From NCBI RefSeq assembly GCF_003024805.1, contig NZ_PUEC01000031.1, forward strand, positions 1 to 33,618: 33,618 nt of DNA, given 5' to 3'. A program made the position numbers and the translations under genes. The DNA comes from Duncaniella muris. GTDB lineage: Bacteria > Bacteroidota > Bacteroidia > Bacteroidales > Muribaculaceae. The notes beneath the pieces were generated by a model. It searched no databases. It was not told where the DNA came from and was given only the letters and a program-made list of their open reading frames with translations. Each line of letters begins with the position of its first letter. The first letter of the stretch is position 1. Positions 1 to 18,979 of the stretch are shown one piece after another.

Positions 1-100
<100 letters not shown>

Positions 101-106
101 TAAACC

Positions 107-152: not shown

Positions 153-197
153 ATATCCCTTCTTCTGCAATTACTCTGCTTCGGGATATCCCCCCCA

Positions 198-237
198 GCA
201 ATCCTCACCGCAATCCCCCACCAATCGCAATCCCCCC
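198..237. repeat. Short imperfect GCAATCCCCC direct repeats
   Basis: Three copies of GCAATCC(C/T)C occur at 198, 210 and 227, giving spacings of 12 and 17 bases. They lie in a C-rich stretch between the 5S terminator and the nuo promoter. No coding potential is evident. The repeats may be chance low-complexity sequence or a binding region upstream of the promoter. Confidence 0.45.
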
Positions 238-323
238 GCGCTCCGGCATCCACCTTTTGGTTTGGCCGCTTTGGCTAAGATTGTCGGTTTTAGGTATATA
301 TTGTTATAAAGCATCTAAAAAAG

Positions 324-357
324 TTTGGGGAGTTTTGGGAAATTTTGACTATATTTG
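324..357 (+). promoter_or_regulatory. Bacteroidota-type promoter of the nuo-atp operon
   Basis: A perfect TAnnTTTG -7 box (TATATTTG) lies at 350-357. A TTTG -33 element lies at 324-327 with a 22-base spacer, slightly longer than the usual 19-21. Transcription would start near 364, leaving a leader of about 90 bases before nuoA. No other sequence in 153-456 matches this pattern as well, and the short open frame at 257-460 is not a convincing gene. Confidence 0.6.
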
Positions 358-456
358 CACTGCGATTCGGGATTTTTGTGCCCGTTGGAGTCCTAATGTT
401 GGCTTATCGCACTGGAATACAGTGTATTATAGTAAAGAAACCGTATTAATTACTTT

Positions 457-825
457 ATGATAGCATTGGCAATTCAGAATGTGACCCTTGCTGTTGTGGC
501 GCTCTTGACGGGCGTTGCTCTTGTCGCCATCGCTTTATGGCTTGCGGGTCTCATTTCTCCACGTTCGTTCAACCCGCAGAAGGGTGAGGCTTATGAGTGC
601 GGTATTCCTACCAGAGGTGAGTCTATGGCTCAGTTCAAGGTGGGATATTATCTTTTTGCCATACTCTTCCTGATGTTTGACGTAGAAACCGTGTTTCTCT
701 ATCCCTGGGCAGTGAGAGTCCATGAGCTTGGAACCTCAGGCCTCACTGCGATCGCAGTCTTTTTTGGAATCATTGTGCTGGGCCTTGTCTATGCCTGGCG
801 GAAAGGAGCTCTTGAATGGAAGTAA
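457..825 (+). CDS. nuoA: NADH-quinone oxidoreductase subunit A (complex I)
   Basis: The 122-residue product is a small integral membrane subunit of complex I (NDH-1), in the proton-pumping arm next to the quinone chamber. Three hydrophobic helices are visible (about residues 5-31, 60-82 and 88-114). The family signature is present: the loop with YECGIP (46-51), then the FKVGYYLFAILFLMFDVETV segment with its conserved acidic residues. Length fits the family at about 120-147 residues. It is the first gene of the 18-gene nuo-atp block and overlaps nuoB by 10 bases, which implies translational coupling. The start is the first in-frame ATG that gives a full family N-terminus. Confidence 0.96.
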   Translation: MIALAIQNVTLAVVALLTGVALVAIALWLAGLISPRSFNPQKGEAYECGIPTRGESMAQFKVGYYLFAILFLMFDVETVFLYPWAVRVHELGTSGLTAIAVFFGIIVLGLVYAWRKGALEWK

Positions 826-1424
826 CTACTCAAGGCATGCCCTACGAGGCATGGAAGGACAACGAATACATCGAGGATCTTGTCAAGAAACTTCAGGAGA
901 GCGGCACCAACGTGGTTGTCGGTTCTTTTGACAAACTTATCAACTGGGGGCGTTCCAACTCTATCTGGCCGCTCACCTTTGCCACCAGTTGCTGCGGCAT
1001 CGAATTTGTGTCGCTTGGAGCCGCCCGTTATGACATGGCGCGATTCGGCTGGGAAGTTGCCCGTGCCTCGCCACGTCAGGCCGACTTCATGATGGTGGCC
1101 GGTACGATTGTCCACCGCATGGTGCCCGTGTTCCGCCGTCTCTATGATCAGCTGGCAGAGCCGAAATATGTGATTGCCTGCGGCAGCTGCGCCATCTCCG
1201 GCGGTCCGTTCAAGAAGAGCTATCACGTGGCTATGGGCATTGAGGATATTGTCCCGGTAGATGTATTCATCCCCGGCTGTCCTCCCCGTCCGGAAGCCAT
1301 GATCTATGGTATCATGCAGCTCTCACGCAAGATCAAGGTCGAGAAGTTCTTCGGAGGTGTCAACCGCCAGGAAAAGCAGGCCGAATTTCTTAAAGCACAT
1401 CCGGTTCCCGGAGTGAACGACTGA
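816..1424 (+). CDS. nuoB: NADH-quinone oxidoreductase subunit B, N2 iron-sulfur cluster protein
   Basis: This peripheral-arm subunit carries the N2 [4Fe-4S] cluster that passes electrons to quinone. All four ligands are visible: tandem C59-C60 in ATSCCGIEF, C125 in ACGSC and C155 in PGCPPRP. The 202-residue length is normal. The ATG at 816 overlaps the end of nuoA and is preceded by AAAGGAGC (802-809), a rare clear ribosome-binding site in this region. The product would bind NuoCD and NuoI to form the hydrogenase-like connecting module. Confidence 0.97.
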   Translation: MEVTTQGMPYEAWKDNEYIEDLVKKLQESGTNVVVGSFDKLINWGRSNSIWPLTFATSCCGIEFVSLGAARYDMARFGWEVARASPRQADFMMVAGTIVHRMVPVFRRLYDQLAEPKYVIACGSCAISGGPFKKSYHVAMGIEDIVPVDVFIPGCPPRPEAMIYGIMQLSRKIKVEKFFGGVNRQEKQAEFLKAHPVPGVND

Positions 1425-1463
1425 TTTCATTGATAATACACCACATTATTATACACATATAAT

Positions 1464-3098
1464 ATGTCCAACATCCGGGAAAAGATCTCAACGCTGTTGC
1501 CTGAGGCTGTCATTGAAGACGGCGATATAATGCAGGTGACCGTACCCGACGCCAAGTGGCACGATTTCGCGAAGACCCTTCGCGACGACGCTGACCTCTC
1601 ATTTGATTTCCTTGTGACAATCGTGGGTATGGACTGGAAGGAAAACGGTATGGGCTGTGTCTATTACCTCACTTCCACAAAATTCAACACTCACCTCGCC
1701 GTGAAGGTCATGGCCACCGGTGACCGTGAGCGTCCGCTCATCCATTCGATTTTCGATCTCTGGGCCATCGCGACCGTCTATGAACGCGAGGTCTATGACT
1801 TCTTCGGGATCATCTTCATCAACAACCCCGATATGCGCCGCCTCTTCCTCAATCTCGACTGGAAAGGCTATCCCCTGCGCAAGGATTATGACGAAGATCC
1901 TTCGATCAACCCTGTCTCGATTGAAAACGAACGCCAGACTGACTTCACCGACGTCTGGACCGAGACTGCCGACGGAAAAATCGAAAAGCACGAGCGCCGC
2001 ATCTTCCAGCCGGAAGACTTCGTGGTCAACATCGGCCCGCAGCACCCGGCAACCCACGGTGTGCTTCGTTTCCGCACTGCAATTGACGGCGAGACCATCA
2101 AGAAGATCGATATCTACCTCGGCTATATCCACCGCGGAGTTGAAAAGATATGCGAGAAGCTGACTTATCCGCAGACCCTCCACTTCATGGACCGTCTCGA
2201 CTACTTCTCGGCGCATCCCTATCACCACTGTCTCTGCATGCTCATCGAAGAGGCCGCAGGCATCGAAATTTCGCGCCGTGCCCAGGTGATCCGAGTGCTC
2301 ATGGACGAGCTTTCGCGCATCGCCTCCCACTGTCTCTTCATCGGCACCTACTGCATGGACCTCGGCGCGACCACCATGCTCTTCTACACCCTCCGTGTCC
2401 GCGAGCAGATTCTCGACATCATGGAGAAGACCTGCGGCGCGCGCATGACTTTCAACTATGACTGCATCGGTGGCGTAATGCAGGATCTGCATCCCGACTT
2501 CGTGAAAGATGTCCACGCGCTTCTCGACGTGCTCCCCGCAAACATCAAGGAGTACAACAAGATATTCACCGGTAACGTCATTGCCCGCAACCGAATGGAA
2601 AACGTCGGTGTGCTCACCCGTGAAGACGCCATTTCCTGGGCTGTGACAGGCCCCAACGGCCGAGGCTCAGGCTGGGCCTGCGACGTGCGCAAGTGTGCCC
2701 CCTACAGCATCTACTCCGAACTCGATTTCGAAGAAGTGGTGCGCGAGGAAGGCGACTCGATGGCCCGTTTCAAAGTCCGCATGGACGAAATGGTTCAGAG
2801 CGCGCGCATCATCGCACAGCTTGTCGACAACATTCCCGAAGGCGATTACTGCGTGAAGGTGCCCAAAGTGCTCAAGCTCCCCGTAGGCCACTGGTTCAAG
2901 ATGGTCGAAGGCTGCCGCGGCACGTTCGGAATCTATCTTGAAAGCGATGGCACAACAAGTCCCTATCGTCTTAAGATAGCACCTCCGTGTCTTCCTGCCG
3001 CAGCCGTGGTCGACCACATCACCGACGGACAGAAGATCGCCGACCTTATCACAATCGGAGGTTCGCTTGACTATATCGTTCCTGACATCGACCGCTGA
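1464..3098 (+). CDS. nuoCD: NADH-quinone oxidoreductase fused subunit C/D
   Basis: This is a 544-residue fusion of two peripheral-arm subunits. The NuoC domain covers about residues 1-160, with the signature YEREVYDFFGI (106-116) and GYPLRKDY (135-142). The NuoD domain covers about 180-544 and opens with NIGPQHPATHGVLRF (189-203), which contributes to the quinone-binding pocket. A charged linker (about 150-180) joins them. Fused nuoC-nuoD is known in Escherichia coli and in Bacteroidota. It lies 39 bases after nuoB and has no strong ribosome-binding site, as is usual in this phylum. There is no sign of a frameshift at the fusion point. Confidence 0.97.
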   Translation: MSNIREKISTLLPEAVIEDGDIMQVTVPDAKWHDFAKTLRDDADLSFDFLVTIVGMDWKENGMGCVYYLTSTKFNTHLAVKVMATGDRERPLIHSIFDLWAIATVYEREVYDFFGIIFINNPDMRRLFLNLDWKGYPLRKDYDEDPSINPVSIENERQTDFTDVWTETADGKIEKHERRIFQPEDFVVNIGPQHPATHGVLRFRTAIDGETIKKIDIYLGYIHRGVEKICEKLTYPQTLHFMDRLDYFSAHPYHHCLCMLIEEAAGIEISRRAQVIRVLMDELSRIASHCLFIGTYCMDLGATTMLFYTLRVREQILDIMEKTCGARMTFNYDCIGGVMQDLHPDFVKDVHALLDVLPANIKEYNKIFTGNVIARNRMENVGVLTREDAISWAVTGPNGRGSGWACDVRKCAPYSIYSELDFEEVVREEGDSMARFKVRMDEMVQSARIIAQLVDNIPEGDYCVKVPKVLKLPVGHWFKMVEGCRGTFGIYLESDGTTSPYRLKIAPPCLPAAAVVDHITDGQKIADLITIGGSLDYIVPDIDR

Positions 3099-3187
3099 TC
3101 CGGATCTGATGCCGCAGAAACAGAGATTCAAGTGAAAAATTACGAGTCAAAAAAACACAGAGAGTAAACTATAAGTAACTTTTCAAT

Positions 3188-4264
3188 ATGCAAGACTTAT
3201 CAGTAGGAACCGCCTGGCTTCATTCTTTCCTCACGGACTACATCCCCGAATGGGCTGCCGTGACCCTCGAATGTCTGCTCATCGGAGTAGGGTTGATGCT
3301 GCTCTATGCAGTCCTGGCCCTTTTCTACATTCTTTTCGAGCGTAAGGTGTGCGCCTATTTCCAGTGCCGTCTCGGCCCGAACCGTGTAGGCCCCTGGGGC
3401 TTGATGCAGAGTATCGCCGATATGTTCAAGATTCTCATCAAAGAGCTTATCTCGCTGAACCATATCGACAAATTTCTCTTCGCACTGGCTCCATATTTGG
3501 TAATCATAGCCTCGATGCTCGCTTTTGCCGTGCTTCCGTGGGGCAATGGACTTCAGATCATCGACTTCAACGTCGGCATCTTCTTCCTCCTTGCCGTCTC
3601 TTCGATCGGCGTGCTTGGCATTCTTCTGGCAGGATGGTCATCAAACAATAAGTTTACCCTCATCGGCGCCCTTCGTTCAGGCGCGCAGATGGTCAGCTAT
3701 GAGCTCTCGATGGGACTTTGCGTGGTGACAATGGTTGTCATGGCCGGCACAATGTCGGTAGGAGGCATTGTTGAAGCCCAGAGTCATCTGTGGTTCATCT
3801 TCTCAGGCCACATTCCGGCCATCATCGCCTTTGTGATCTTCATGATCGCCGGCACAGCCGAAACCAACCGCGGCCCGTTTGACCTTCCTGAAGCCGAAAG
3901 TGAGCTTACCGCCGGCTATCACACCGAATATTCCGGTATTCACTTCGGATTTTTCTATCTTGCCGAATATCTCAACCTCTTCATCGTGTCAGGTGTCGCC
4001 GCCCTCCTTTTCTTCGGCGGCTGGATGCCTCTCCACATTCCCGGACTTGACGCGTTCAACCACGTAATGGACTATATACCATCGTTTGTGTGGTTCATCG
4101 GCAAGGCTATCGCACTTTCATTCATCATCATCTGGTTCAAGTGGACTTTCCCCCGTCTGCGTATCGACCAGCTGCTGACACTCGAATGGAAATACCTTCT
4201 TCCGATCAATCTGTTCAACCTTGTGCTCATGGTAATTGTTGTAACATTCGGATTGTATCTCTAA
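3188..4264 (+). CDS. nuoH: NADH-quinone oxidoreductase subunit H
   Basis: The 358-residue membrane subunit joins the pumping arm to the peripheral arm and lines the quinone cavity. Several long hydrophobic helices are evident. Family signatures include [19 protein letters not shown] near residue 63 and the acidic loop [17 protein letters not shown] beginning near residue 224. Length is slightly above the 325 residues typical of E. coli. In known Bacteroidota nuo loci nuoI follows directly. Here the next gene is atpD, 93 bases downstream, and nuoI lies more than 7 kb away. Confidence 0.97.
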
Positions 4265-5863
<1,599 letters not shown>

Positions 5864-5919
5864 GCACCCCTCTCCAGCATATCCACTCCACCCGAATCTC
5901 TCAAAACAGCAGATAAAGC

Positions 5920-6159
5920 ATGATACTAAAAGTCATCTCGGCCGAAGACATCCTCTTTCAGGGAGAAGTCAAAGCAGTGCATCTTCCCGGTGCGCTCGGC
6001 GCCTTCACCGTCCTCCCCGGCCATGCCGCTCTGATCTCAACTCTGACCCCCGGTGAAATCCGCTACACCGCGGCCGCCGACGGCGAAGAGCAGCGCATCA
6101 GCGTCAGTGGCGGAATAGTCGATGTCGACAGCAACATCGTGTCAGTCTGCATATATTAA
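5920..6159 (+). CDS. atpC: F1Fo ATP synthase subunit epsilon, short form
   Basis: The 79-residue product corresponds only to the N-terminal beta-sandwich of epsilon, with the family motif GALGAFTVLPGHAALISTL (residues 25-43). The usual protein is about 130-140 residues, with a two-helix C-terminal domain that can extend into F1 and inhibit ATP hydrolysis. That domain is absent. The stop codon is followed after two bases by the atpB start, so there is no room for a lost C-terminus in another frame. The product should still connect the gamma stalk to the c-ring. Confidence 0.93.
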   Translation: MILKVISAEDILFQGEVKAVHLPGALGAFTVLPGHAALISTLTPGEIRYTAAADGEEQRISVSGGIVDVDSNIVSVCIY

Positions 6160-6161
6160 TA

Positions 6162-7322
6162 ATGGTGATGATGAAACGAAATATTCTCGCAGCAATCGCA
6201 ATGGCCTTTGTGGCCCTTCTGCTTCCCCTTGCGGGCCGCGCCTCCGGTCACGAGGCCGACTCTCAGGAGAAAAGCGGAGCCGTTGACGCCCAGGGCATCA
6301 TCTTCGAGCACCTTGGCGACCGCTACGGCTGGGAAGTGCCGTTCAATCACCACAAGAGCATACCCCTGCCCGTAATAGTCTGGGGCAGTGACGGACTCCA
6401 CGTATTCTCCTCGGCGCGAGTGGACCACGGAAAGGAATACCGCGACGGCTCGGCGCTTTTCCGCATAGCCGGAAAAGACAGCCCCTACAAGGGAAAAGTA
6501 GTGGAGATAATCGACGGCAAGGAAGTGAAACCCACCGTTGACATCTCCATCACCAAAAACGTCTGCGGCGTCTTCATCGCAGTCCTGCTGGTCATCTGGA
6601 GCATCCTCTCTGTAGCCCGCTGGCACCGCAACCAGGGCCTCAAAGCCCCCCGCAAGATGACGGGAGCCATCGAATTTGTGATCCTCTTCATCTATGACGG
6701 TGTCATCAAGCCCACCCTCAAAAACAAGGCCAACAAATTCGCCCCCTATCTTCTGACAGTATTCTTCTTCATTCTCGTGATGAACCTCCTGGGCCTGATA
6801 GTGATCTTCCCCGGCGGCGCCAACCTCACAGGCAACATAGCCGTGACTCTCGTGCTTGCCATAATCACCTTCCTGATCACCAACATCTTCGCCACCAAAC
6901 ACTACTGGAAAGAAATCTTCAACCCCGATGTGCCCTGGTGGCTCAAATGGCCCCTCCCGATCATGCCTATCATCGAAATCTTCGGCGTGTTCACCAAACC
7001 CGCAGCGCTGACAGTCCGTCTATTCGCCAACATGATGGGCGGCCACATGATCGTGATCGTGCTCACCCTCCTCATCTTCATTTTCGCAGCTATGGGCCCG
7101 GTCGTGACCGGCGCCACAGCCGTGGTCAGCATCATCTTCTCGGTGTTCATGCTTCTGATCGACGTGCTTGTGAGCTTCATCCAGGCCTACGTGTTCACCA
7201 TGCTCTCGACCCTCTTCATAGCCCTCGGCCAGGAAGAAGGCCATCATGAAGACCACAAGAAGGAAGAAGACCCCCACGCCCCCGGCCTCCCGGCCTCCAC
7301 GGGCACAGAAACCCACGCATAA
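6162..7322 (+). CDS. atpB: F1Fo ATP synthase subunit a, long form with N-terminal extension
   Basis: This is the proton-channel subunit a of Fo. The essential arginine lies in AALTVRLFANMMGGH (R286), and the last helix carries SFIQAYVFTMLS (338-349). The 386-residue protein is more than 100 longer than E. coli AtpB (271). Residues 5-29 look like a signal peptide, followed by an extracytoplasmic segment to about 130 and then the helices. The C-terminus (358-386) is a His/Glu/Lys-rich tail. The start at 6162 lies two bases after atpC. Met codons at 6168 and 6171 are equally plausible starts. Confidence 0.95.
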   Translation: MVMMKRNILAAIAMAFVALLLPLAGRASGHEADSQEKSGAVDAQGIIFEHLGDRYGWEVPFNHHKSIPLPVIVWGSDGLHVFSSARVDHGKEYRDGSALFRIAGKDSPYKGKVVEIIDGKEVKPTVDISITKNVCGVFIAVLLVIWSILSVARWHRNQGLKAPRKMTGAIEFVILFIYDGVIKPTLKNKANKFAPYLLTVFFFILVMNLLGLIVIFPGGANLTGNIAVTLVLAIITFLITNIFATKHYWKEIFNPDVPWWLKWPLPIMPIIEIFGVFTKPAALTVRLFANMMGGHMIVIVLTLLIFIFAAMGPVVTGATAVVSIIFSVFMLLIDVLVSFIQAYVFTMLSTLFIALGQEEGHHEDHKKEEDPHAPGLPASTGTETHA

Positions 7323-7360
7323 CCAAAAAAATCAAAATAACCCTTTAATCTCCCGCAATT

Positions 7361-7609
7361 ATGTTAGCAATGATTTTAGCAGCTATCGAAGGAACCCTCG
7401 GCATCGGCGTTTGCATCGGTGCAGCAATCGCAGCAATTGGCGCCGGCATCGGCATCGGCAAGATCGGTGGATCCGCCATGGAAGCTATCGCACGTCAGCC
7501 CGAATCAACCGGCGACATCCGCAGTAACATGATCGTTATCGCCGCCCTTATCGAAGGTGTGGCCCTCTTCGCTGTTATCGTTTGTATCCTCGCAATGTTT
7601 GTGGGCTGA
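7361..7609 (+). CDS. atpE: F1Fo ATP synthase subunit c
   Basis: The 82-residue hairpin protein forms the rotor ring of Fo. Helix 1 has the glycine repeat GAGIGIGKIGG (27-37). The polar loop is ARQPE (44-48), and helix 2 carries the ion-binding carboxylate E65 in ALIEGVALF. The residues after E65 are Gly-Val rather than the Ser/Thr pair typical of sodium-binding rings, and helix 1 lacks the sodium-site glutamine. This points to proton coupling, by comparison with known families. The gene sits 38 bases after atpB in the standard order. Confidence 0.96.
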   Translation: MLAMILAAIEGTLGIGVCIGAAIAAIGAGIGIGKIGGSAMEAIARQPESTGDIRSNMIVIAALIEGVALFAVIVCILAMFVG

Positions 7610-7634
7610 TCTCCAAGCTTCATCTATCTGAAAA

Positions 7635-8132
7635 ATGGAACTTTTCACGCCTGATTTCGGTCTGATATTCTGGATGTTCGTATCGTTCGCCATCCTCTTC
7701 TTCGTCCTGTGGAAGTGGGGCTGGCCGGCGATCATGAAAGGAGTGTCTGACCGAGCCGACCTCATCGACAAAGGTGTGGAGTATGCTCAAAATGCCAAAC
7801 AACAGCTTGACCATGCCCGCGAAGAGGCGGATAAATACATAGCCGACGCCCGTCGCCAGCAGGCCGACATGCTCCGCGAAGCCGACAAGATGAAAACCCA
7901 GATCATCGAGGAAGCCCGCTCCGCAGCGCAAACCGAAGCCAAAAAGGTGATGGACGCAGCAAAAGTGTCAATCGAACAGGAACGCAAGCAAGCCGAACAG
8001 CAGTTCCGCAACGAAGTCTCGTCATTTGCCCTCGACATCGCACAGAAAGTCGTCCGCAACCAGATGAAAGACGAAAAAGCCCAGGAACAGCTCGTAAGTT
8101 CTCTGCTTGACGAAATGGAAAAACAGAACTGA
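7635..8132 (+). CDS. atpF: F1Fo ATP synthase subunit b
   Basis: The 165-residue product has one N-terminal membrane helix (about residues 8-27, FGLIFWMFVSFAILFFVLWK) followed by a long charged coiled coil rich in Ala, Glu, Lys and Gln. This is the architecture of the b stator stalk that ties Fo to the alpha and delta subunits. Length is close to E. coli AtpF (156). It starts 25 bases after atpE. A 153-base gap, unusually long for this block, separates it from atpH. Confidence 0.95.
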   Translation: MELFTPDFGLIFWMFVSFAILFFVLWKWGWPAIMKGVSDRADLIDKGVEYAQNAKQQLDHAREEADKYIADARRQQADMLREADKMKTQIIEEARSAAQTEAKKVMDAAKVSIEQERKQAEQQFRNEVSSFALDIAQKVVRNQMKDEKAQEQLVSSLLDEMEKQN

Positions 8133-8285
8133 TACCCCTCCAGCCGTACCGGACCGACAGCCACTCAGGCCGTCAGCTCCGGAACGGCAAGGGCAAGAAC
8201 CTCAGTTCCGCATTTCCGGCAGTCTCCCCTCTAAACTTCCACTACTCTCATCATCCGTTAACCCTAAGGTTCCAACCACCAAGCA
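8133..8285 (+). other. 153-base spacer between atpF and atpH
   Basis: No coding sequence, promoter box or T-run terminator is visible. CGGAAC near 8174 can pair with GTTCCG near 8199, but the stem is only six pairs with a long loop. The gap is the longest inside the atp set, where other spacers are mostly under 60 bases. It may be a leader that tunes atpH translation or an erosion scar. Confidence 0.4.
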
Positions 8286-8831
8286 ATGAATCAAGGTCTC
8301 ATCCCAAGCCGATACGCAAAAGCGCTTTTCGAGTTCGCCTCCGAGAAGAAGGCCGACCGACGCATCTATGACCTGATGCACGCACTTGAAAGCTCCTTCG
8401 CTTCCGAGCCGTCGCTCCAGCAGGCCGTAGGCAACCCCTTCATCCCTGCAGCCGACAAGATGAAACTCCTGACAACCGCTGCCGGAGCCTCAGGAAACGA
8501 TGAAGTATATGCCCGCTTCCTGCAGCTTTTAGCTGACAACAACCGCCTTGATGTCGCCCGTGACATAGCTCTCGCCTACATGAAGCTCTATCGCAGCGAA
8601 CATCACATCTACCTTGTCACCGTCACCTCTGCCGCCCCTATGGCGCAGGCCGAGGAAGAACGGCTACGCAAACTCATCCTCCGCCATCTCGACGGCGGAA
8701 CAATGGAGTATCACCATCGCGTCGACCCCTCCCTAATAGGAGGCTTCACCGTAACAATCAACAACGAGAAGCTTGACGCCTCTGTGGCCGATGAACTCAA
8801 ACAATTGCGTCTGAAACTTTTAAGCAACTAA
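8286..8831 (+). CDS. atpH: F1Fo ATP synthase subunit delta
   Basis: The 181-residue protein is the OSCP/delta stator subunit that caps the alpha3beta3 head and binds subunit b. The N-terminus IPSRYAKALFEFA (residues 6-18) is a clear family signature. The C-terminal part includes DPSLIGGFTVTINNEKLDAS, matching the conserved C-terminal motif. Length equals the family norm (about 177). The start is the ATG at 8286, 27 codons before the next Met. Confidence 0.95.
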   Translation: MNQGLIPSRYAKALFEFASEKKADRRIYDLMHALESSFASEPSLQQAVGNPFIPAADKMKLLTTAAGASGNDEVYARFLQLLADNNRLDVARDIALAYMKLYRSEHHIYLVTVTSAAPMAQAEEERLRKLILRHLDGGTMEYHHRVDPSLIGGFTVTINNEKLDASVADELKQLRLKLLSN

Positions 8832-8858
8832 CCAACTTCACATCCCCCTCATACCAAA

Positions 8859-10430
8859 ATGATAAACCCAAGCGAGATTTCTCAGGTCTTAAAACAGCAG
8901 CTGGAGAACGTCAGCTCCAAAGTGTCTTTCGAAGAGACAGGAGTTGTTCTGGAAGTAGGCGACGGAGTAGCCCACGTCTACGGTCTCGACAATGTCTGCG
9001 CCAACGAGCTTGTAGAATTTGAAAACGGAGTGAAAGGTGTAGCCCTCAACCTTGAGGAAAGCAATGTGGGTGTCATCCTCCTCAACGAAATCAACAACGT
9101 TACTGAAAACATGACCGTCAAGCGCACAGGCGAGATCGCCTCGATCCACGTAGGCGACGGCGTGTTCGGTCGCGTGATCAACGTACTCGGCGAACCTATC
9201 GACGGCCGCGGCCCAATCCAGGGCGAACTCTTCCCCATGCCCCTCGAACGCAAGGCCCCCGGCGTTATTTTCCGTCAGCCCGTCAAGCAGCCGCTCCAGA
9301 CAGGTCTGAAAGCAATCGACTCAATGGTGCCCATTGGCCGCGGACAGCGCGAGCTCATCATCGGCGACCGCCAGATCGGCAAGACAGCCATCGCCATTGA
9401 CACCATCATCAACCAGCGCGCAAACTTCGAGGCAGGAAAACCTGTCTACTGCATATACGTGGCCATCGGACAGAAAGCATCGTCCGTAGCAGCCATCGTT
9501 GAGACCCTCCGTCAGCACGGAGCGCTTGACTACACCGTGGTAGTCGCAGCCACCGCCGCCGACTCGGCGTCAATGCGCTACTATGCCCCCTTTGCCGGAG
9601 TAGCCATCGGCGAATACATCCGCGATACCGGCCGCGACGCCCTCATCGTCTATGACGACCTCTCGAAGCAGGCCGTGGCCTATCGCGAGATCTCGCTCAT
9701 TCTCAAGCGCCCCTCAGGCCGCGAAGCATATCCCGGCGATATCTTCTATCTCCACAGCCGTCTGCTTGAACGTGCCGCCAAGATCATCGACAACCAGCAG
9801 GTGGCAAGCCAGATGAATGACCTTCCAGCCTCGCTCAAAGACAGAGTCAAAGGCGGCGGCTCGCTCACCGCGCTCCCTATCATCGAGACCCAGGCAGGTG
9901 ACGTTTCGGCCTACATCCCCACCAACGTGATCTCGATCACCGACGGCCAGATCTTCCTCGAAACCGCTCTCTTCAACCGAGGCATCCGCCCGGCCATCAA
10001 CGTAGGTATCTCCGTGTCGCGTGTGGGCGGTAACGCGCAGATCAAATCAATGAAAAAAGTGGCCGGCACGCTCAAGATCGACCAGGCACAGTTCCGCGAG
10101 CTCGAATCGTTCACCAAATTCGGCGGCGACATCGACCCAGTGACCGCCCGCGTCATCGACAAAGGCCGCAAAAACGAACGCCTGCTCATCCAGCCTCAGT
10201 ACGCCCCGATGAAGGTCGAAGACGAAGTGGCCGTCATCTACTGCGGCACCAAAGGGCTGCTTGAAAACGTGCCCCTCGACAAAGTTGCCGAGTTCGAGAA
10301 AAACTTCCTCCAGCTCGTCAACACAAAATATCCCGAAGTCATGGAGTCAATCCGCGCCGGAAAGCTTGATGACGACATCACCGCCAAGCTCACCGAAGCA
10401 GCGGCTGAAATTTCGGGATCATATAAATAA
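8859..10430 (+). CDS. atpA: F1Fo ATP synthase subunit alpha
   Basis: This is the non-catalytic nucleotide-binding F1 subunit. The P-loop GDRQIGKT is at residues 169-176. The arginine-finger region [14 protein letters not shown] and the segment [16 protein letters not shown] are intact. The 523-residue length matches the family (about 505-525). It lies 27 bases after atpH and 23 bases before atpG, consistent with one transcript. Nothing in it is unusual. Confidence 0.98.
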
Positions 10431-10453
10431 GAAGAACAGCAACCAAAGCTCAC

Positions 10454-11341
10454 ATGGCAACACTCCGCGAACTAAAAGGACGAATCGGCTCCGTGGCTTC
10501 CAGCGAGAAGATCACGGGCGCGATGAAGATGATCTCCTCGGCCAAGATGCACCGTGCCGAGGGCGATCTCCGTCGCCTCCTGCCATTCCGCCAGCAGATA
10601 GAGAACATCATAGGCAACCTCCTCTCAGCCGACGCCGAGTTCTCATCACCCCTCACCGAGGCGCGTGACGTTGCCTCGGTGGCAATCGTGGTCCTCGGCA
10701 GTGACGACGGTCTCTGCGGAGCCTATAACATCAATATCTACAAGGAACTCGTTAAATCCATCGGCCAGCTCCGCGAAATTTACGGCGACCAGGTCAGGAT
10801 CACTCTGATCCCCGTAGGCCGCAAAATGGTCAAAGCCGCCGGACGCCTCACCGCCCTGCCCGGCATCACCGTGAGCCACGCTGAAGGAGTCGATTCCAAA
10901 TCAAGCGGCGAAGCCGTCAAGCAGTTCACCCGCAGCCTTGAAAAACGCTTCATCGCAGGCGAGTTTGACAGCGTGAGAATTCTCTACATGAACTTCCAGT
11001 CGGTCAGCCGCCAGCGTCCCCGCTGCGACGCCCTTCTCCCCGTCTGCCCCGAATCATTCGCGGCCGAAGGAGCCAAAACCCTCTGCCGGCCCTACATCTT
11101 CGAGCCTGACGCCCCGACGATCTTCGTCTCCGTCCTCCCGATGTTCCTTCTGGCCGTCATGCAGGAAATCTTCACCGAAAACCGCGCCTCGGAGCAAGCC
11201 GCCCGCATCATGGCCATGCAGAGTGCCAACGACAACGCCAAGAAACTCCTCGAACAGCTTCAGCTCGAATACAACAAACTCCGCCAGCAGAGTATCACCA
11301 CCGAGCTTCTCGACATAGTCGGCGGACAGGTAAGAGACTGA
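10454..11341 (+). CDS. atpG: F1Fo ATP synthase subunit gamma
   Basis: This is the central rotor shaft of F1. The N-terminal helix ATLRELKGRIGSVASSEKIT (from residue 2) and the C-terminal helix with SANDNAKKLLEQLQLEYNKL and RQQSITTELLDIVGG are the two halves of the coiled coil that turns within the alpha3beta3 ring. The 295-residue length is close to E. coli (287). It is the last ATP synthase gene. The next gene is nuoI, 71 bases downstream, so the complex I operon resumes here. Confidence 0.97.
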   Translation: MATLRELKGRIGSVASSEKITGAMKMISSAKMHRAEGDLRRLLPFRQQIENIIGNLLSADAEFSSPLTEARDVASVAIVVLGSDDGLCGAYNINIYKELVKSIGQLREIYGDQVRITLIPVGRKMVKAAGRLTALPGITVSHAEGVDSKSSGEAVKQFTRSLEKRFIAGEFDSVRILYMNFQSVSRQRPRCDALLPVCPESFAAEGAKTLCRPYIFEPDAPTIFVSVLPMFLLAVMQEIFTENRASEQAARIMAMQSANDNAKKLLEQLQLEYNKLRQQSITTELLDIVGGQVRD

Positions 11342-11412
11342 CACGGCGCCAAAGCAAAAAAAATAATCCGATCATAACATCCACAGCACATAACCGAAAG
11401 AGTACAATTGAC
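11342..11412 (+). other. atpG-nuoI junction, no promoter or terminator seen
   Basis: This is the right boundary of the ATP synthase block within the nuo operon. It contains an A-run but no stem-loop with T-tract, no TAnnTTTG box, and no direct repeat matching the nuoH-atpD spacer. The absence of an element scar means the join is either old or made by homologous rearrangement. Confidence 0.5.
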
Positions 11413-12159
11413 ATGGGAAGTGTAAAAGAGTATTTCTCAAATCTTGGATCCGGCATAGCCAGCCTTGTAAAAGGCATGCAGGTAACCGGTAAGGAATTTG
11501 TCACCCCCAAAATCACTGAAGAGTATCCCGACAACCGAGACAATCTGCCTGTCGCCGACCGCTTCAGGGCAATCCTTACACTCAAGTATGACGACCAGGG
11601 TGACCACAAATGTATCGCCTGCGGCACCTGCGAGCGTGTCTGCCCCAACAACACCATCTCCCTCGACATCAAGACCGTCGAAACATGGGACGGCAAAAAG
11701 AAAAAGAAACTCGACAAATATCACTACGATCTCGGAAGCTGCACCTTCTGCCAGCTTTGCGTGACAAACTGTCCGACTGACGCCCTTGAATTCAGCAATG
11801 ACTTCGAGCAGGCGCTCTACACCCGCAGCAAACTCGTCAAGCTTCTCAACTATCTCCCTGAAAAGCCCGAACCTCAGCCCACCCCTGAGCAGATCGAGAA
11901 GATGAAAGCCGAGAAAGAAGCCAAAATAGCAGCCGCCAAGGCAGCCGCCGAAGCCAAGAAAGCCGCAGCAGCAGGCGCAGCCGCCACACCGGCCGCCCCC
12001 GCAGCCCAGGTTCCAGCCGCTGACGACGCCGCCGCAAAGGCACTCGCCGCCGCAAAGGGCGATCCTGAAAAAGAGGCCAAGATCCGCGCCGCGCTCGAAA
12101 AAGCCGCTGCCCTCAAGGCAAAACGCGAAGCCGAGAAAAACGCCGGTGCCGCAAACTGA
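11413..12159 (+). CDS. nuoI: NADH-quinone oxidoreductase subunit I with Ala/Lys-rich C-terminal tail
   Basis: This 8Fe ferredoxin-type subunit carries clusters N6a and N6b. The two motifs are CIACGTCERVCP (Cys 67, 70, 73, 77) and CTFCQLCVTNCP (Cys 110, 113, 116, 120). The conserved core ends near residue 150. About 95 further residues (155-248) are low in complexity and rich in Ala, Lys, Glu and Pro, with Ala-Ala-Lys repeats. They are likely a flexible or helical basic tail. E. coli NuoI has 180 residues, so the tail is extra. It opens the second half of the split complex I gene set. Confidence 0.96.
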   Translation: MGSVKEYFSNLGSGIASLVKGMQVTGKEFVTPKITEEYPDNRDNLPVADRFRAILTLKYDDQGDHKCIACGTCERVCPNNTISLDIKTVETWDGKKKKKLDKYHYDLGSCTFCQLCVTNCPTDALEFSNDFEQALYTRSKLVKLLNYLPEKPEPQPTPEQIEKMKAEKEAKIAAAKAAAEAKKAAAAGAAATPAAPAAQVPAADDAAAKALAAAKGDPEKEAKIRAALEKAAALKAKREAEKNAGAAN

Positions 12160-12205
12160 ACCTCTTTTCATCACCAATCACGATAATTAATTACTATCAC
12201 AGTAT

Positions 12206-12721
12206 ATGGAATCAGTAGGAAGTACAATCTTTTATTGGATAATCGCCCTGTCGATTGTCATCTTCTCGGTACTGACTGTCACCACACGCAAAATCCTGCG
12301 TGCGGCCACATATCTGCTCTTCGTCCTTTTCGCGACCGCAGCCCTCTACTTCAAGCTCGACTATGAGTTTCTCGGCTCGGTTCAGATTGCGGTCTACGCC
12401 GGCGGTATAGTGGTCCTCTTCGTCTTTGCAATTCTGCTCACGACTCATCCCGGTGACAACAGCAAGCAGTTAACCTCGCGCAAAAAATTTCTCGGCCTCG
12501 TCGGCGCTCTCGCCACAGCCGGAGCCTGTGCCTGGGCCCTCTGCTCACGCTCTGCCGACCTCTTTACATCGCTGCCCTCTATGGCCAACCCGTCAATGCA
12601 CCGCATCGGCGAAGCAATGCTCGGCACAAACTACGGACAATATCTTCTGCCGTTCGAGGCCGTCAGCGTACTGCTGCTCGCCTGCATAATCGGTGGTGTC
12701 GTAATCGCACGTAAACGCTAA
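12206..12721 (+). CDS. nuoJ: NADH-quinone oxidoreductase subunit J
   Basis: The 171-residue membrane subunit lies in the pumping arm beside NuoK and NuoA. Five hydrophobic helices are visible. The third contains the conserved FLGSVQIAVYAGGIVVLFVF stretch, the family hallmark at the pi-bulge region. Length fits NuoJ of Bacteroidota (about 170; E. coli 184). The gene follows nuoI by 46 bases and precedes nuoK by 16. Confidence 0.95.
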   Translation: MESVGSTIFYWIIALSIVIFSVLTVTTRKILRAATYLLFVLFATAALYFKLDYEFLGSVQIAVYAGGIVVLFVFAILLTTHPGDNSKQLTSRKKFLGLVGALATAGACAWALCSRSADLFTSLPSMANPSMHRIGEAMLGTNYGQYLLPFEAVSVLLLACIIGGVVIARKR

Positions 12722-12737
12722 TTCAAACATTTCACCA

Positions 12738-13049
12738 ATGGATATTACACTGATCTGGTATCTCGTTCCCGCAATCGTGATGTTTTGCTGCGGCGTCTAC
12801 GGCTTCCTGACCCGCCGCAACATGATAGCCATGCTCATATCCCTTGAGCTCATGCTCAATGCGGTCGACATCAACTTTGTGGTCTTCAACCGCTATCTCT
12901 TCCCCTCCTCGATGGAAGGATGGATGTTCACCCTCTTTGGAATCGCCATCGCCGCAGCCGAGACCGCACTCGCAATCGCCATCATCATCAACCTTTTCCG
13001 GGTAAGCAAAAACATTGACGTCCGCGACGCAACAAAAATGAAAAATTAA
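12738..13049 (+). CDS. nuoK: NADH-quinone oxidoreductase subunit K
   Basis: The 103-residue, three-helix subunit is MrpC-like. Two membrane glutamates essential for proton transfer in E. coli NuoK (E36 and E72) have counterparts here, E37 in LISLELML and E75 in AIAAAETALA. Length is the family norm (about 100). It is placed between nuoJ and nuoL, ten bases before the latter, as in most complex I operons. Confidence 0.97.
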   Translation: MDITLIWYLVPAIVMFCCGVYGFLTRRNMIAMLISLELMLNAVDINFVVFNRYLFPSSMEGWMFTLFGIAIAAAETALAIAIIINLFRVSKNIDVRDATKMKN

Positions 13050-13058
13050 TCACGCCCT

Positions 13059-15005
13059 ATGGATATTACAATACCTATTCTTATATTGGCAATCCCGCTC
13101 TTCATGTTCCTCCTCTTAGGACTGGCGGGAGTCAAGATGAGTCACAAACTCGCCGGTACGCTCGGAACGCTCGGCATGGGAACCGTGTTGGTCTTGTCCT
13201 ATTACACGGCGTTCACCTACTACTTCTCAGGAAACCCTGAATTCATCGACGGAACCACACGCCTGCAGGCCGTGATCTTCAACCACACCTGGCTGCAGTT
13301 CACCCCCGCGCTCGCAATCCGCATCGGTTTCCTTCTCGACCCGATCTCAGCCATGATGCTCATTGTCATCCCGACAATCTCATTCATGGTCCACGTCTAC
13401 TCGCTCGGCTACATGCACGGAGAGAAAGGCTTCCAGCGCTACTACGCTTTCCTTTCGCTCTTCAGCTTCTCGATGCTCGGACTCGTTGTCGCGACCAACA
13501 TATTCCAGATGTACATCTTCTGGGAGCTCGTGGGCGCATCTTCGTTCCTCCTCATCGGCTTCTTCTACACCCTCCCCTCGGCCGTATCGGCATGTAAGAA
13601 AGCCTTCATCGTCACCCGCTTCGCCGACCTCGGATTCCTCATCGGCATCCTCGTCCTCTCATACTTCACCCATCATCTCGACTTCCTCCCGATGACCCAG
13701 AACCCGCAGGCCGTCCTCGCAAGCTTCGAGGGCGTCACCTTCCTCGGCGCTTCCGGACTCACCTGGGCCCTCGTCCTGATCTTCACCGGAGGTATGGGCA
13801 AATCGGCCATGCTACCCCTCCACATCTGGCTCCCCGACGCGATGGAAGGCCCGACCCCCGTATCGGCCCTCATCCACGCCGCCACAATGGTTGTGGCCGG
13901 TGTATATCTCGTGGCCCGTCTCTTCCCGCTCTACATGCTTGAAGACGCCGCTCTGATGTTCATCACAGTGGTCGGAGCAGCAACAGCATTCTACGCCGCA
14001 ATGGTGGCCTGCGCCCAGATCGACATCAAGCGCATCCTCGCCTTCTCGACCATCTCGCAGATCGCCTTCATGATGGTATCGCTCGGCGTGGCATCCAAAA
14101 ACAACGTCGCCATCCACGAAGGTCTCGGCTACATGGCATCCATGTTCCACCTCTTCACCCACGCCATGTTCAAAGCCCTCCTCTTCCTCGGAGCCGGCTC
14201 GCTCATCCACGCAGTCCACTCAAACAACTACACCGCTATGGGCGGCCTGCGCAAATACATGCCTATAACCCACATCACCTTCCTCATCGGCTGTCTCGCC
14301 ATCGCAGGCATCTGGCCATTCGCAGGTTTCTTCTCTAAAGACGAAATCCTCTCGGCCTGCTTCGCCAACGGTACTTTCTGGGGCATCTGGATGATGATGG
14401 TAGCCGCAATGACCGCCTTCTACATGTTCCGCATGTACTTCCTCGTCTTCTGGTGGGACAACCCCGACTACGAGAAAGAACACCACGGCCATCTTCCCCA
14501 CGACCCCGGCTTCGCAATGACCTTCCCGCTGATCTTCCTCGGAATAGTCTCGATCATCGCCGGATTCATCCCCTTCGGACAGCTCGTCACCTTCGACGGC
14601 CACGAATATCACATCCATATAGACTGGTCTATCGCCGGACTCAGCATGGGAGTAGCCATCCTCTCGATTGCATTCTCAGCCTGGCTCTACATGAAGAAAA
14701 ACGACAAGCCCAGGCGCATGGCCGACTCCTGCCGCTGGCTCTGGACAGCTGCAAACCGCCGCTTCTACTGGGACGAAATCTACCTCTTCATCACCCGCCG
14801 CATCATCTTCGACGGAATCTGCAAGCCCATCGCCTGGTTTGACCGCCACATAATCGACGGCACAATGGACGGATTCGCCTATGTCACCAACAAGGCATCC
14901 TACGCCATCCGCGGCTTCCAGAGCGGCAAAGTGCAGATGTACATCTGGTGGTATCTCATCGGAGCTGTCGTGCTCGGCATCATAACCGCCATCTGTGTCC
15001 TCTGA
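13059..15005 (+). CDS. nuoL: NADH-quinone oxidoreductase subunit L
   Basis: This is the distal Mrp-antiporter-like pump subunit. The broken-helix signature GPTPVSALIHAATMVVAGVY starts at residue 264. A conserved Trp-Glu pair lies in the FQMYIFWELVGASSFLLIGF segment. The 648-residue protein has a long C-terminal part (about 480-648), expected to form the lateral helix along the membrane arm. Length is slightly over E. coli (613). No frameshift is seen. Confidence 0.97.
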   Translation: MDITIPILILAIPLFMFLLLGLAGVKMSHKLAGTLGTLGMGTVLVLSYYTAFTYYFSGNPEFIDGTTRLQAVIFNHTWLQFTPALAIRIGFLLDPISAMMLIVIPTISFMVHVYSLGYMHGEKGFQRYYAFLSLFSFSMLGLVVATNIFQMYIFWELVGASSFLLIGFFYTLPSAVSACKKAFIVTRFADLGFLIGILVLSYFTHHLDFLPMTQNPQAVLASFEGVTFLGASGLTWALVLIFTGGMGKSAMLPLHIWLPDAMEGPTPVSALIHAATMVVAGVYLVARLFPLYMLEDAALMFITVVGAATAFYAAMVACAQIDIKRILAFSTISQIAFMMVSLGVASKNNVAIHEGLGYMASMFHLFTHAMFKALLFLGAGSLIHAVHSNNYTAMGGLRKYMPITHITFLIGCLAIAGIWPFAGFFSKDEILSACFANGTFWGIWMMMVAAMTAFYMFRMYFLVFWWDNPDYEKEHHGHLPHDPGFAMTFPLIFLGIVSIIAGFIPFGQLVTFDGHEYHIHIDWSIAGLSMGVAILSIAFSAWLYMKKNDKPRRMADSCRWLWTAANRRFYWDEIYLFITRRIIFDGICKPIAWFDRHIIDGTMDGFAYVTNKASYAIRGFQSGKVQMYIWWYLIGAVVLGIITAICVL

Positions 15006-15042
15006 ATCTGTTAACCTGTTAAGAAAAATATAGTAACGCGAT

Positions 15043-16548
15043 ATGTTTTCCAATATATTGATCTACTTCGTGGTGATCCCCGTGGTCATGCTGCTGGGAC
15101 TCTTCCTCTGCCGGAACATCAAGCAGATCCGGGCAGTGGCAGTCACAGGCTCGGTTGTCCTGACAGCCCTCTCGGTCTGGCTTCTCGTCGACTATCTCGC
15201 ACTCCGCGCCGCCGGAGCCACAGACCCCATGCTCTGGGTCGACTCCTGGCAGTGGTTCGCTCCGCTCAACATCAACCTCGCCGTTGGTGTCGACGGCATC
15301 TCGATAGCCATGCTCATCCTCACCGGCGTAATCCTCATCACAGGCAGCTTCGCCTCATGGGAAATCCCGCAGCCAAAGGAATTCTTCCTCTGGCTCATCC
15401 TCCTGTCGACCGGTGTCTACGGATTCTTCATCTCCATCGACCTCTTCACCATGTTCATGTTCTATGAAGTCGCCCTCATCCCGATGTATCTTCTCATCGG
15501 TGTCTGGGGCAGCGGCAACAAGAACTACTCGGCGATGAAACTCACCCTCATGCTCATGGGCGGATCGGCATTCCTCATGCTCGGCCTCATCGGCATCTAC
15601 TACCACTCCGCTCCCGCCGGACAGCCCCTCACCTGGAACATCCTTGAGATTGCCCAGAACGACGCCATCAGCCACGGCTGGCAGACATTCCTCTTCCCGA
15701 TGACCTTCGTGGGCTTCGGTGTGCTCGGCGCAATGTTCCCCTTCCACACCTGGTCGCCTGACGGCCACGCATCGGCCCCCACAGCAGTGTCGATGCTCCA
15801 CGCAGGTGTGCTCATGAAGCTCGGCGGCTACGGCTGCTTCCGTGTGGCCATCTACCTGATGCCCCACGCCGCCAACGAACTGGCCTGGATCTTCCTCATC
15901 CTCACCGGCATCTCGGTTGTCTACGGAGCCTTCAGCGCATGCGTCCAGAACGACCTCAAATACATCAACGCATACTCATCGGTGTCACACTGCGGTCTGG
16001 TGCTCTTCGCCATCCTCATGCTCAACACCACAGCGATGACCGGAGCCATCATGCAGATGCTCTCCCACGGTCTGATGACAGCCCTCTTCTTCGCCCTCAT
16101 CGGTATGATCTACGGACGAACCCACACCCGCGACATCCGCGAGATGGGCGGCATGATGCAGATCCTCCCTTATCTCTCGGTCTGCTACGTCATCGCCGGC
16201 ATGGCCTCCCTCGGTCTCCCCGGTCTCTCCGGCTTCGTTGCCGAAATGACAATCTTTGTCGGATCGTTCGAACACTCTGACCTCTTCCACCGCGTCTTCG
16301 TCATAGTGGCCTGCAGCTCCATCGTGACAACCGCCGTCTACATCCTCCGCGTCGTAGGCAAGCTCCTCTACGGTCCAGTCTATGACCAGCACCACATGAC
16401 ACTCACCGACGCCAAGTGGTGGGAACGTGTAGCCACCGCCGGACTCATCGTCTGCGTGGCCGGCATCGGTTTCTTCCCCAACTTCTTCGTCGATCTTATC
16501 AAGTTCACTTTCAGCCCTGAAATCTTCACCGTTATCGGTCTGAACTAA
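15043..16548 (+). CDS. nuoM: NADH-quinone oxidoreductase subunit M
   Basis: This is the second antiporter-like pump subunit. The signature GHASAPTAVSMLHAGVLMKL starts at residue 241, and a functional glutamate lies in the MFMFYEVALIPMYLLIG segment. The 501-residue length matches the family (about 500). It starts 37 bases after nuoL, and nuoN follows 17 bases later. Confidence 0.97.
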   Translation: MFSNILIYFVVIPVVMLLGLFLCRNIKQIRAVAVTGSVVLTALSVWLLVDYLALRAAGATDPMLWVDSWQWFAPLNINLAVGVDGISIAMLILTGVILITGSFASWEIPQPKEFFLWLILLSTGVYGFFISIDLFTMFMFYEVALIPMYLLIGVWGSGNKNYSAMKLTLMLMGGSAFLMLGLIGIYYHSAPAGQPLTWNILEIAQNDAISHGWQTFLFPMTFVGFGVLGAMFPFHTWSPDGHASAPTAVSMLHAGVLMKLGGYGCFRVAIYLMPHAANELAWIFLILTGISVVYGAFSACVQNDLKYINAYSSVSHCGLVLFAILMLNTTAMTGAIMQMLSHGLMTALFFALIGMIYGRTHTRDIREMGGMMQILPYLSVCYVIAGMASLGLPGLSGFVAEMTIFVGSFEHSDLFHRVFVIVACSSIVTTAVYILRVVGKLLYGPVYDQHHMTLTDAKWWERVATAGLIVCVAGIGFFPNFFVDLIKFTFSPEIFTVIGLN

Positions 16549-16565
16549 TCTATAGATTAATAGCA

Positions 16566-18008
16566 ATGGATTACTCACAGTTTTTAGCACTCAAGCAGGA
16601 AATAGGATTGTTAATCGTATTCCTATTAGTCTTCCTCTATGACACTTTCTGCAGCCCCCGTTCGGCAAAAGCCGTCCCGATGATCGCAACCGTTCTCATG
16701 GGTGTGCTCGTCGCCTGGGGATTCTGCCCCGTGGTCAAGGCCCCTGAGACCGCCTTCGCCGGAATGTATGTCACTTCACCCGTGATGGTGGCTATCAAAA
16801 ACATTCTTAACGTCGGCGTGTTCATCGTCCTCATCCAGTCCGTCAAATGGGCCAACTCCGAATTCACCGCAGTGCGCCGCGGCGAATTCTACGAACTGAT
16901 ACTTCTGACCCTCTTAGGCATGTATCTGATGATTTCGAGCCGCCACTTCCTGATGTTCATCATCGGCCTCGAAACTGCCTCGCTTCCCCTCTGCGCACTT
17001 GTCGCCTTTGACAAGCACCGCTATGAAAGCCATGAGGCCGCCATCAAATACGTCCTCACCGCCGTATTCTCTTCGGCAATCCTCCTGATGGGTCTCTCGT
17101 TTGTCTACGGTCTGGCCGGAACTCTCTACTACGACGGCATCACCGGAGCTCTCGCAGGCCGCATGGGCGTGATGCTTTCTGTGGCCCTCGCCTTCGTGAT
17201 GGCCGGTTTCGGATTCAAACTCTCGCTCGTTCCCTTCCACCTCTGGACAGCCGACGTCTACCAGGGTGCACCCACATCGGTGACCTCATATCTCTCGGTC
17301 ATCTCCAAAGGCTCGGCGGCTTTCGCCTTCCTCGTGGTGCTCACTCAGGTATTCGGCCAGTTCTACGCCCAGGCTTGGGAGTGGATGCTCTACGCTCTGA
17401 TCATCCTCACCATCACTGTCGGTAACCTCTTCGCCATCCGCCAGACCAACATGAAGCGCTTCCTCGCCTTCTCGTCGATCTCGCAGGCCGGTTATATCAT
17501 GCTCGCCATCATCGGCGACAACGATATGGGCGTCTCGGCTCTCATGTTCTACACTCTTGTCTACGTATTCTCCAACCTCGCCGCCTTCGGCGTGATCGGA
17601 GCCATTGAAAACGCCACAGGCAAGGTAGACATGACCGACTACAACGGTCTCTACAAGACCAACCCCCGTCTGTCGTTCACAATGATGCTCGCCATGTTCT
17701 CCCTCGCCGGCATCCCCCCGTTTGCAGGCTTCTTCAGCAAATTCTTTGTCTTCACAGCCGCCCTCAACGGAACCGCCTCAGCCGCTCTCTACGTGCTGGT
17801 GCTCATTGCCCTCATCAACACCATCATCTCCCTCTACTACTATCTGCTCGTTGTGAAGGCCATGTTCATCAATGAAAGCGACAGCCCGATCGCCACATTC
17901 CGCTCGGCATGCTCCGAACGTCTCGGCATGTGGATCTGCGTTGCAGGCATCATCGGCCTCGGCATCGTAAGTTACTTCTATGACTATCTCCTGACAGTCG
18001 TAGCCTGA
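16566..18008 (+). CDS. nuoN: NADH-quinone oxidoreductase subunit N
   Basis: This is the third antiporter-like pump subunit, closest to NuoK. VYQGAPTSVTSYLSVISKGS begins at residue 231 and is the family version of the broken-helix motif with its lysine. FIIGLETASLPLCAL carries the conserved glutamate. The 480-residue length is normal. It is the last gene of the bioenergetic block. A strong hairpin lies 30 bases after the stop codon, before murI. Confidence 0.97.
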   Translation: MDYSQFLALKQEIGLLIVFLLVFLYDTFCSPRSAKAVPMIATVLMGVLVAWGFCPVVKAPETAFAGMYVTSPVMVAIKNILNVGVFIVLIQSVKWANSEFTAVRRGEFYELILLTLLGMYLMISSRHFLMFIIGLETASLPLCALVAFDKHRYESHEAAIKYVLTAVFSSAILLMGLSFVYGLAGTLYYDGITGALAGRMGVMLSVALAFVMAGFGFKLSLVPFHLWTADVYQGAPTSVTSYLSVISKGSAAFAFLVVLTQVFGQFYAQAWEWMLYALIILTITVGNLFAIRQTNMKRFLAFSSISQAGYIMLAIIGDNDMGVSALMFYTLVYVFSNLAAFGVIGAIENATGKVDMTDYNGLYKTNPRLSFTMMLAMFSLAGIPPFAGFFSKFFVFTAALNGTASAALYVLVLIALINTIISLYYYLLVVKAMFINESDSPIATFRSACSERLGMWICVAGIIGLGIVSYFYDYLLTVVA

Positions 18009-18038
18009 ACAGAATAATTACCCAGATCTGATAAAACT

Positions 18039-18076
18039 ATCTCCGGCCGCAATGCGTTTTGCTTGCAGCCGGAGAT
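18039..18076 (+). terminator. Strong hairpin after nuoN (possible terminator or attenuator)
   Basis: ATCTCCGGC (18039-18047) pairs perfectly with GCCGGAGAT (18068-18076). GCAA (18049-18052) then pairs with TTGC (18063-18066) beyond a one-base mismatch. There is no T-run after the stem, so it is not a classical intrinsic terminator. It could end the 18-gene transcript with Rho, protect its 3' end, or attenuate read-through into murI. No TAnnTTTG promoter is seen between it and murI. Confidence 0.6.
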
Positions 18077-18148
18077 TGCTGATAAAGGACAGAGGCCCGG
18101 ACAGCTCTTCGCCTCTCGTTTCACCCACCTTCAAAAAAACACTGAACC

Positions 18149-18979
18149 ATGTTTCCTTCAGCACCCGGCCCAATCGGCGTTTTTGACTCAGGCTACGGCG
18201 GCCTGACCATACTCAAAGGCATCCGCGAAACTCTCCCGCAGTATGACTACCTCTATCTCGGCGACAATGCCCGCACTCCTTACGGCACACGCTCGTTCGA
18301 CGTAGTCTACCGCTTCACCCGTCAGGCAGTGGAATCCCTCTTCAGCCGCGGTTGCCAGCTGGTGATCCTCGCCTGCAACACCGCATCGGCCAAAGCCCTG
18401 CGCTCCATCCAGCAGAAAGACCTGCCCGGATGGGATCCATCGCGCCGTGTGCTCGGAGTGGTCATCCCCACGGTCGAAGCCCTCGGTCATATAACCAAAA
18501 ACGGAAATATAGGCCTGCTCGGAACCCCCGGCACCGTAAGCTCAGGCACCTATGACATAGAGATCGCCAAGTTCTTCCCCCAGTTCCGCACCGTCTCCGT
18601 GGCCTGCCCCATGTGGGTGCCTCTGGTCGAAAACAAGGAATTCGATTCGCCCGGCGCCGACTATTTTGTGAAGAAATATGTCGATGAACTCTTCACCCAG
18701 GAGCCTGAAATAGACACCGTGATTCTCGGCTGCACTCACTATCCGCTGCTGATCGACAAGATCCGCCGCGAAATCGGCTCGCGCGCCACCATCGTCACCC
18801 AGGGTGAACTCGTAGGCGCCAGTCTCGCCGACTATCTGCGCCGCCATCCCGAAATGGATGCCAAGTGCACCAAAGGCGGCTCATGCGAATTCCTGACCAC
18901 CGAAAACCCCGACAAGTTCACCGAACTCGCCGAAATATTCCTTCAGACACCTCTTAAGGCCTCCCGTATAGATCTCTGA
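18149..18979 (+). CDS. murI: Glutamate racemase
   Basis: The enzyme interconverts L- and D-glutamate in the cytoplasm to supply D-Glu for peptidoglycan. The N-terminal signature IGVFDSGYGGLTIL (9-22) and LGDNARTPYG (37-46) are present. The two catalytic cysteines are C76 in LACNTASA and C195 in LGCTHYPLL. The 276-residue length is typical. The lipoprotein gene follows 32 bases later on the same strand, so the two may share a transcript. Confidence 0.97.
   Translation: MFPSAPGPIGVFDSGYGGLTILKGIRETLPQYDYLYLGDNARTPYGTRSFDVVYRFTRQAVESLFSRGCQLVILACNTASAKALRSIQQKDLPGWDPSRRVLGVVIPTVEALGHITKNGNIGLLGTPGTVSSGTYDIEIAKFFPQFRTVSVACPMWVPLVENKEFDSPGADYFVKKYVDELFTQEPEIDTVILGCTHYPLLIDKIRREIGSRATIVTQGELVGASLADYLRRHPEMDAKCTKGGSCEFLTTENPDKFTELAEIFLQTPLKASRIDL

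Follow-up and report, generated by a model that had tools for sequence, protein, structure and literature searches.

The window, by which we mean the whole stretch of 33,618 nucleotides analysed here, contains a complete F-type ATP synthase operon within the complex I operon of Duncaniella muris. The genes follow one another in the order nuoA-B-CD-H, atpD-C-B-E-F-H-A-G and nuoI-J-K-L-M-N, all on the plus strand of positions 457-18008 (Table 1). All 18 products match the expected Pfam family above the curated cut-off, and the a, b, c, alpha, beta, gamma, delta and epsilon subunits of the ATP synthase are all encoded in the locus. The initial annotation had described 18 genes on a single strand in this order, with a whole atp operon set inside a whole nuo operon, and the gene positions and Pfam matches bear this out. 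NuoH and AtpG each have a single match in the genome of the strain, both at this locus. We consider it quite probable that a native atp operon was moved once into nuo, that it has no recognisable promoter of its own there, and that the 18 genes are likely read as one transcript driven from nuoA.

Table 1. Features of the nuo-atp locus, in coordinates of the window.
Feature	Position	Strand	Evidence or remark
Promoter-like site TTG-N22-TATATTTG upstream of nuoA	325..357	+	motif scan
nuoA	457..825	+	PF00507, 3e-35
nuoB	816..1424	+	PF01058, 2.2e-28
nuoCD (fused)	1464..3098	+	PF00346 + PF00329
nuoH	3188..4264	+	PF00146, 8.1e-119
nuoH-atpD junction	4265..4357	+	93 bases, without TAnnTTTG; hairpin in this strain only
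atpD (beta)	4358..5863	+	PF00006, 3.9e-65
atpC (epsilon, 79 aa, N-terminal domain only)	5920..6159	+	PF02823, 1.5e-21
atpB (a)	6162..7322	+	PF00119, 3.5e-55
atpE (c)	7361..7609	+	PF00137, 6.4e-18
atpF (b)	7635..8132	+	PF00430, 1e-22
atpH (delta)	8286..8831	+	PF00213, 1.5e-39
atpA (alpha)	8859..10430	+	PF00006, 6.3e-77
atpG (gamma)	10454..11341	+	PF00231, 3.4e-76
atpG-nuoI junction	11342..11412	+	71 bases, without TAnnTTTG; two sigma-70-like matches
nuoI	11413..12159	+	PF00037, two stretches
nuoJ	12206..12721	+	PF00499, 1.7e-33
nuoK	12738..13049	+	PF00420, 2.2e-25
nuoL	13059..15005	+	PF00361 + PF00662
nuoM	15043..16548	+	PF00361, 5.8e-63
nuoN	16566..18008	+	PF00361, 3.1e-64
Hairpin 3' of nuoN, possible transcript end, without T run	18039..18076	+	9-pair outer stem

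Towards the edges of the window, positions 1-99, with which the contig opens, hold the 3' portion of a 5S rRNA gene, leaving 357 bases up to nuoA; a scan of seven relatives yielded no rRNA, and the window sequence upstream of nuoA aligned to none of 80 named loci. On the minus strand, positions 29698-33108 encode a protein of 1136 residues that combines InlB-like repeats with a Big_5 and a pectinesterase domain.

We take the S24-7 group, or 'Ca. Homeothermaceae', to be today's Muribaculaceae. The arrangement is already known, since the available text of Ormerod et al. (2016) reports for S24-7 an F-type ATP synthase within the complex I locus in 26 of 30 genomes, the same feature as at the present locus (PMC4936053). 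The same text gives the S24-7 complex I as 11 of 14 subunits, with NuoEFG missing, mentions Nqr in most genomes, and describes one genome, H5, without both complex I and ATP synthase (PMC4936053). As far as that text extends (PMC4936053), the exact insertion point, the promoter evidence and the carriers outside the family come from the present analysis, whose additions are the occurrence in seven families, the grouping of the carriers in one clade and the pattern of promoter motifs. No description of the further carrier families was found in the open-licence literature. The nuo operon of B. fragilis 638R (BF638R_0850-0841) is likewise of the 11-subunit type without NuoEFG, with unknown electron donor, and the available text on it mentions no ATP synthase genes (Ito et al., 2020; PMC7002350).

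The distribution of the arrangement was examined at two levels. In the named species collection, the best 80 of 259 contigs from a NuoH search were taken (74-98% identical); atpD follows nuoH directly in 78 of them, the other two (L037 and L078) ending 125 and 190 bases after nuoH, and 53 of the 80 span nuoH, all atp genes and nuoI. The NuoH of the strain is 94-98% identical to those on contigs titled Muribaculaceae and Duncaniella, although some titles in that list are wrong. Four contigs titled Paenibacillus, Clostridium, Lachnoclostridium and Alistipes (L005, L038, L051 and L064) hold the nuo-atp cluster of the Muribaculaceae with NuoH 80-94% identical, and these titles look mistaken. Within the family, 197 genomes were searched, with AtpG found in 194 and NuoH in 196. 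All 113 genomes that could be joined among the matches listed fit the insertion layout: in 102, nuoH and atpG share a contig and a strand at a distance of 6719-7824 bases, and in the remaining 11 the nuoH contig reaches atp genes before its end (the AtpG positions for G000 and G125 came from a separate search of insertion genomes). Joint loss was considered and rejected, none of the 197 genomes being without both genes; AtpG was missed in G279, G293 and G310 and NuoH in G180, and of these four cases only the AtpG miss in G279 is explained, by a contig end.

For the wider survey, an even draw of 148 Bacteroidales genomes gave NuoH-family matches in 96, from which 80 stretches were taken, 76 of them with E values no higher than 2.4e-113 and four with weaker matches. 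The order nuoH-atpD was found in 11 genomes of seven families (f1, f18, f24, f54, f61, f80 and f99) and the order nuoH-nuoI in 53 genomes of 42 families, these including f102, the NuoH of which is only 30% identical. Thus, among the 49 readable families, seven have the insertion, 42 have contiguous nuo genes, and none has both states. Neither order was seen in four stretches: L142 stops at the end of its contig, and L158, L159 and L161 are distant sets with a different gene order. Many Bacteroidales families carry another nuoH type (L115, L141-L157), 39-44% identical to that of the window, mostly with nuoI-N downstream and with no nuoB or nuoCD matches in the upstream part examined. The initial annotation had called the arrangement unusual. 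This holds insofar as it is the minority order in the Bacteroidales sampled, the nuo genes being contiguous in most of the readable families; in the Muribaculaceae, by contrast, it is regular, as was published in 2016.

The transcription of the locus was approached through TAnnTTTG, the -7 promoter motif of Bacteroidales. On the plus strand of positions 1-18300, the sole full match to TTG-N18-24-TAnnTTTG starts at 325, upstream of nuoA, against 0.13 matches expected over those positions. Among relatives, the motif was scanned over 260 bases upstream of each start codon, with expectations from each stretch's own dinucleotides and with loci cut by contig edges or containing N runs omitted. In the insertion loci, nuoA is preceded by TAnnTTTG in 68 of 72 cases against a composition-matched expectation of 13.1 (the chance of 1.6% derived from the window composition is too low), nuoI in three of 65 (2.8 expected), and atpD in only two of 90 (8.6 expected). 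In contrast, the free-standing operons carry the motif upstream of atpD in five of eight cases (1.7 expected) and upstream of atpB in 11 of 18 (3.8 expected); the difference for atpD between insertion and free-standing loci has a Fisher p of 1.6e-5, the loci not being independent. This motif placement is best explained by a single transcript from nuoA, in which case nuo and atp would be co-transcribed and probably under joint control. Such a transcript might also set the ratio of the two machines, as the initial annotation had proposed; the relative amounts of subunits encoded by atp operons are governed largely by translation.

The principal alternative is that there was a single move but the neighbourhood is merely inherited, with atp and the nuo tail having unseen starts of their own and no co-regulation. 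We regard this as unlikely, though it deserves more weight than any other alternative. It draws on an excess of TAnnTTTG upstream of nuoL (18 of 62; 5.0 expected) and nuoM (18 of 61; 5.6 expected), which may reflect transcription starting within the nuo tail, or else a codon effect. A sigma-70-type scan placed promoter-like sites at 11338-11367 and 11380-11408, in the atpG-nuoI gap, among a total of 15 sites in 18.3 kb versus 9.6 (sd 3.2) in shuffled sequence. In addition, the nuoH-atpD gap of this strain can form a GC hairpin of -14.9 kcal/mol (z -3.63), with no T run behind it. However, this hairpin is not common to relatives (mean z 0.09 over 86 gaps), and a conserved junction structure was rejected, as z falls below -3 in none of the 86 nuoH-atpD gaps and in five of 61 atpG-nuoI gaps. 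The gaps are also short, with medians of 49 and 46 bases (ranges 21-152 for nuoH-atpD and 6-201 for atpG-nuoI, loci cut by contig edges omitted); their lengths differ among relatives, so that no fixed joint has been kept, which counts rather against the preferred reading. The depletion of the motif before the inserted atpD, set against its excess before the free-standing atpD, argues against an independent start.

The initial annotation had given the junction lengths correctly and had described both junctions as lacking a visible promoter, terminator or element scar. The latter is accurate for TAnnTTTG, and has to be qualified for the sigma-70-like sites in one junction and the unconserved hairpin in the other. 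Its proposal of a single transcript fits the motif placement across relatives, but given the motif excess upstream of nuoL and nuoM, transcription may also begin internally there. Downstream, the 140-base gap after nuoN folds at -37.7 kcal/mol (z -3.43), calculated for this strain only. Within the atp genes, the atpF-atpH gap (8133-8285) is 153 bases long and strongly folded (z -3.45), the median in 69 relatives being 11 bases.

The origin of the insertion was examined with two trees. In the nuo tree (six proteins, 63 rows, 1373 columns), built from 28 of 92 insertion loci and 35 other loci, the 28 insertion rows form one clade with a support of 0.999 and no non-insertion row inside it. Its neighbours, f20, f96, f9 and f53, all have contiguous nuo genes. 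Because the carriers are one clade in this tree, the insertion probably arose once. In the atp tree (six proteins, 38 rows, 1546 columns; midpoint root, all sequences from within Bacteroidales), the 20 insertion rows group at 0.94, beside f96 at 1.00. It took 18 of 20 fetched stretches, leaving out L163, which holds nuo, and L164, which is incomplete. Free-standing operons in f96, f53, f9, f37, f26, f4 and f16 have the same eight genes in the same order, DCBEFHAG, outside nuo, while that of L167 (G002, f3) is ordered B-E-F-H-A-G-D-C, unlike the D-C-first type. AtpG is single-copy in each of the 12 insertion genomes searched, suggesting that no atp copy stayed behind. The trees and the shared gene order are consistent with a single move of a native operon, and point to vertical descent of the atp genes in the clade.

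A gain of the ATP synthase block by horizontal transfer, with replacement of the native one, would suit a block that is compact and whole, and f9 and f53 are indeed not grouped beside the clade in the atp tree, where the branches concerned are weak (0.39-0.51). However, the nearest atp rows in this within-Bacteroidales tree are those of f96, a family that neighbours the clade in the nuo tree as well, and the gene order equals that of free-standing operons of seven families, so we consider such a transfer very improbable. In one f96 genome (G096; L162, L163), nuo and atp face each other in convergent orientation, separated by about 11 kb. Nine f96 genomes have this strong NuoH type and eight of them also AtpG, with nuo and atp sharing a contig in two, G096 and, at about 64 kb, G363; an intermediate state in f96 is not claimed. 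As for an assembly artefact or a strain-specific insertion, many of the genomes are drafts and apparent breaks in L010, L047 and L064 are false, being 100-N gaps, but independent assemblies repeat the order in nearly all of the best 80 named contigs and, on one contig, in 102 of the 113 joined family genomes, the nuoH contig of the other 11 running into atp genes, which refutes it for practical purposes.

According to the reading we prefer, a native, vertically inherited F-type ATP synthase operon would have been moved whole, once, into the space between nuoH and nuoI, in an ancestor shared by the Muribaculaceae-like family with six or more other families of the Bacteroidales, and retained since. 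Having no recognisable promoter of its own any longer, it would be transcribed from that of nuoA; most likely, all 18 genes form one transcript that ends at the hairpin after nuoN. In that case the cell would produce a proton-driven ATP synthase jointly with a complex I that lacks NuoF, the NADH-binding subunit. NuoE and NuoG are not among the genes of the nuo-atp cluster, and NuoF is absent from the genome as a whole, where PF01512 matches nothing but RnfC. AtpE contains ...AALIEGVALFAV..., which was compared by eye with the Na+ ligand motif of Ilyobacter. As AtpE presumably lacks the sodium-type ligands known from there, protons are the likely ion of both machines. Elsewhere, the genome has a full nqrA-F set and six rnf genes in two places: rnfB-rnfC, followed by an aminotransferase gene and tyrS (L209 8776-10999, C27), and rnfD-G-E-A on another contig (L211 5404-8182, C4). 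Nqr and Rnf enzymes are generally sodium pumps.

More tentatively, and with rather more doubt than confidence, a clade of at least seven families may have given up independent ATP synthase expression, the promoter having been lost on capture by nuo, so that the ATP synthase would only be made with complex I. If this is true, the ATP synthase would be tied to a complex I unable to accept electrons from NADH by the usual route, and Nuo and ATP synthase would constitute a hard-wired proton circuit separate from Nqr and Rnf. The arrangement does not amount to a novel type of system. It distinguishes one clade of gut Bacteroidales, in which two large conserved operons were fused, apparently in a single event, and, with the free-standing relatives serving for comparison, the consequences of tying ATP synthase to complex I expression become testable.
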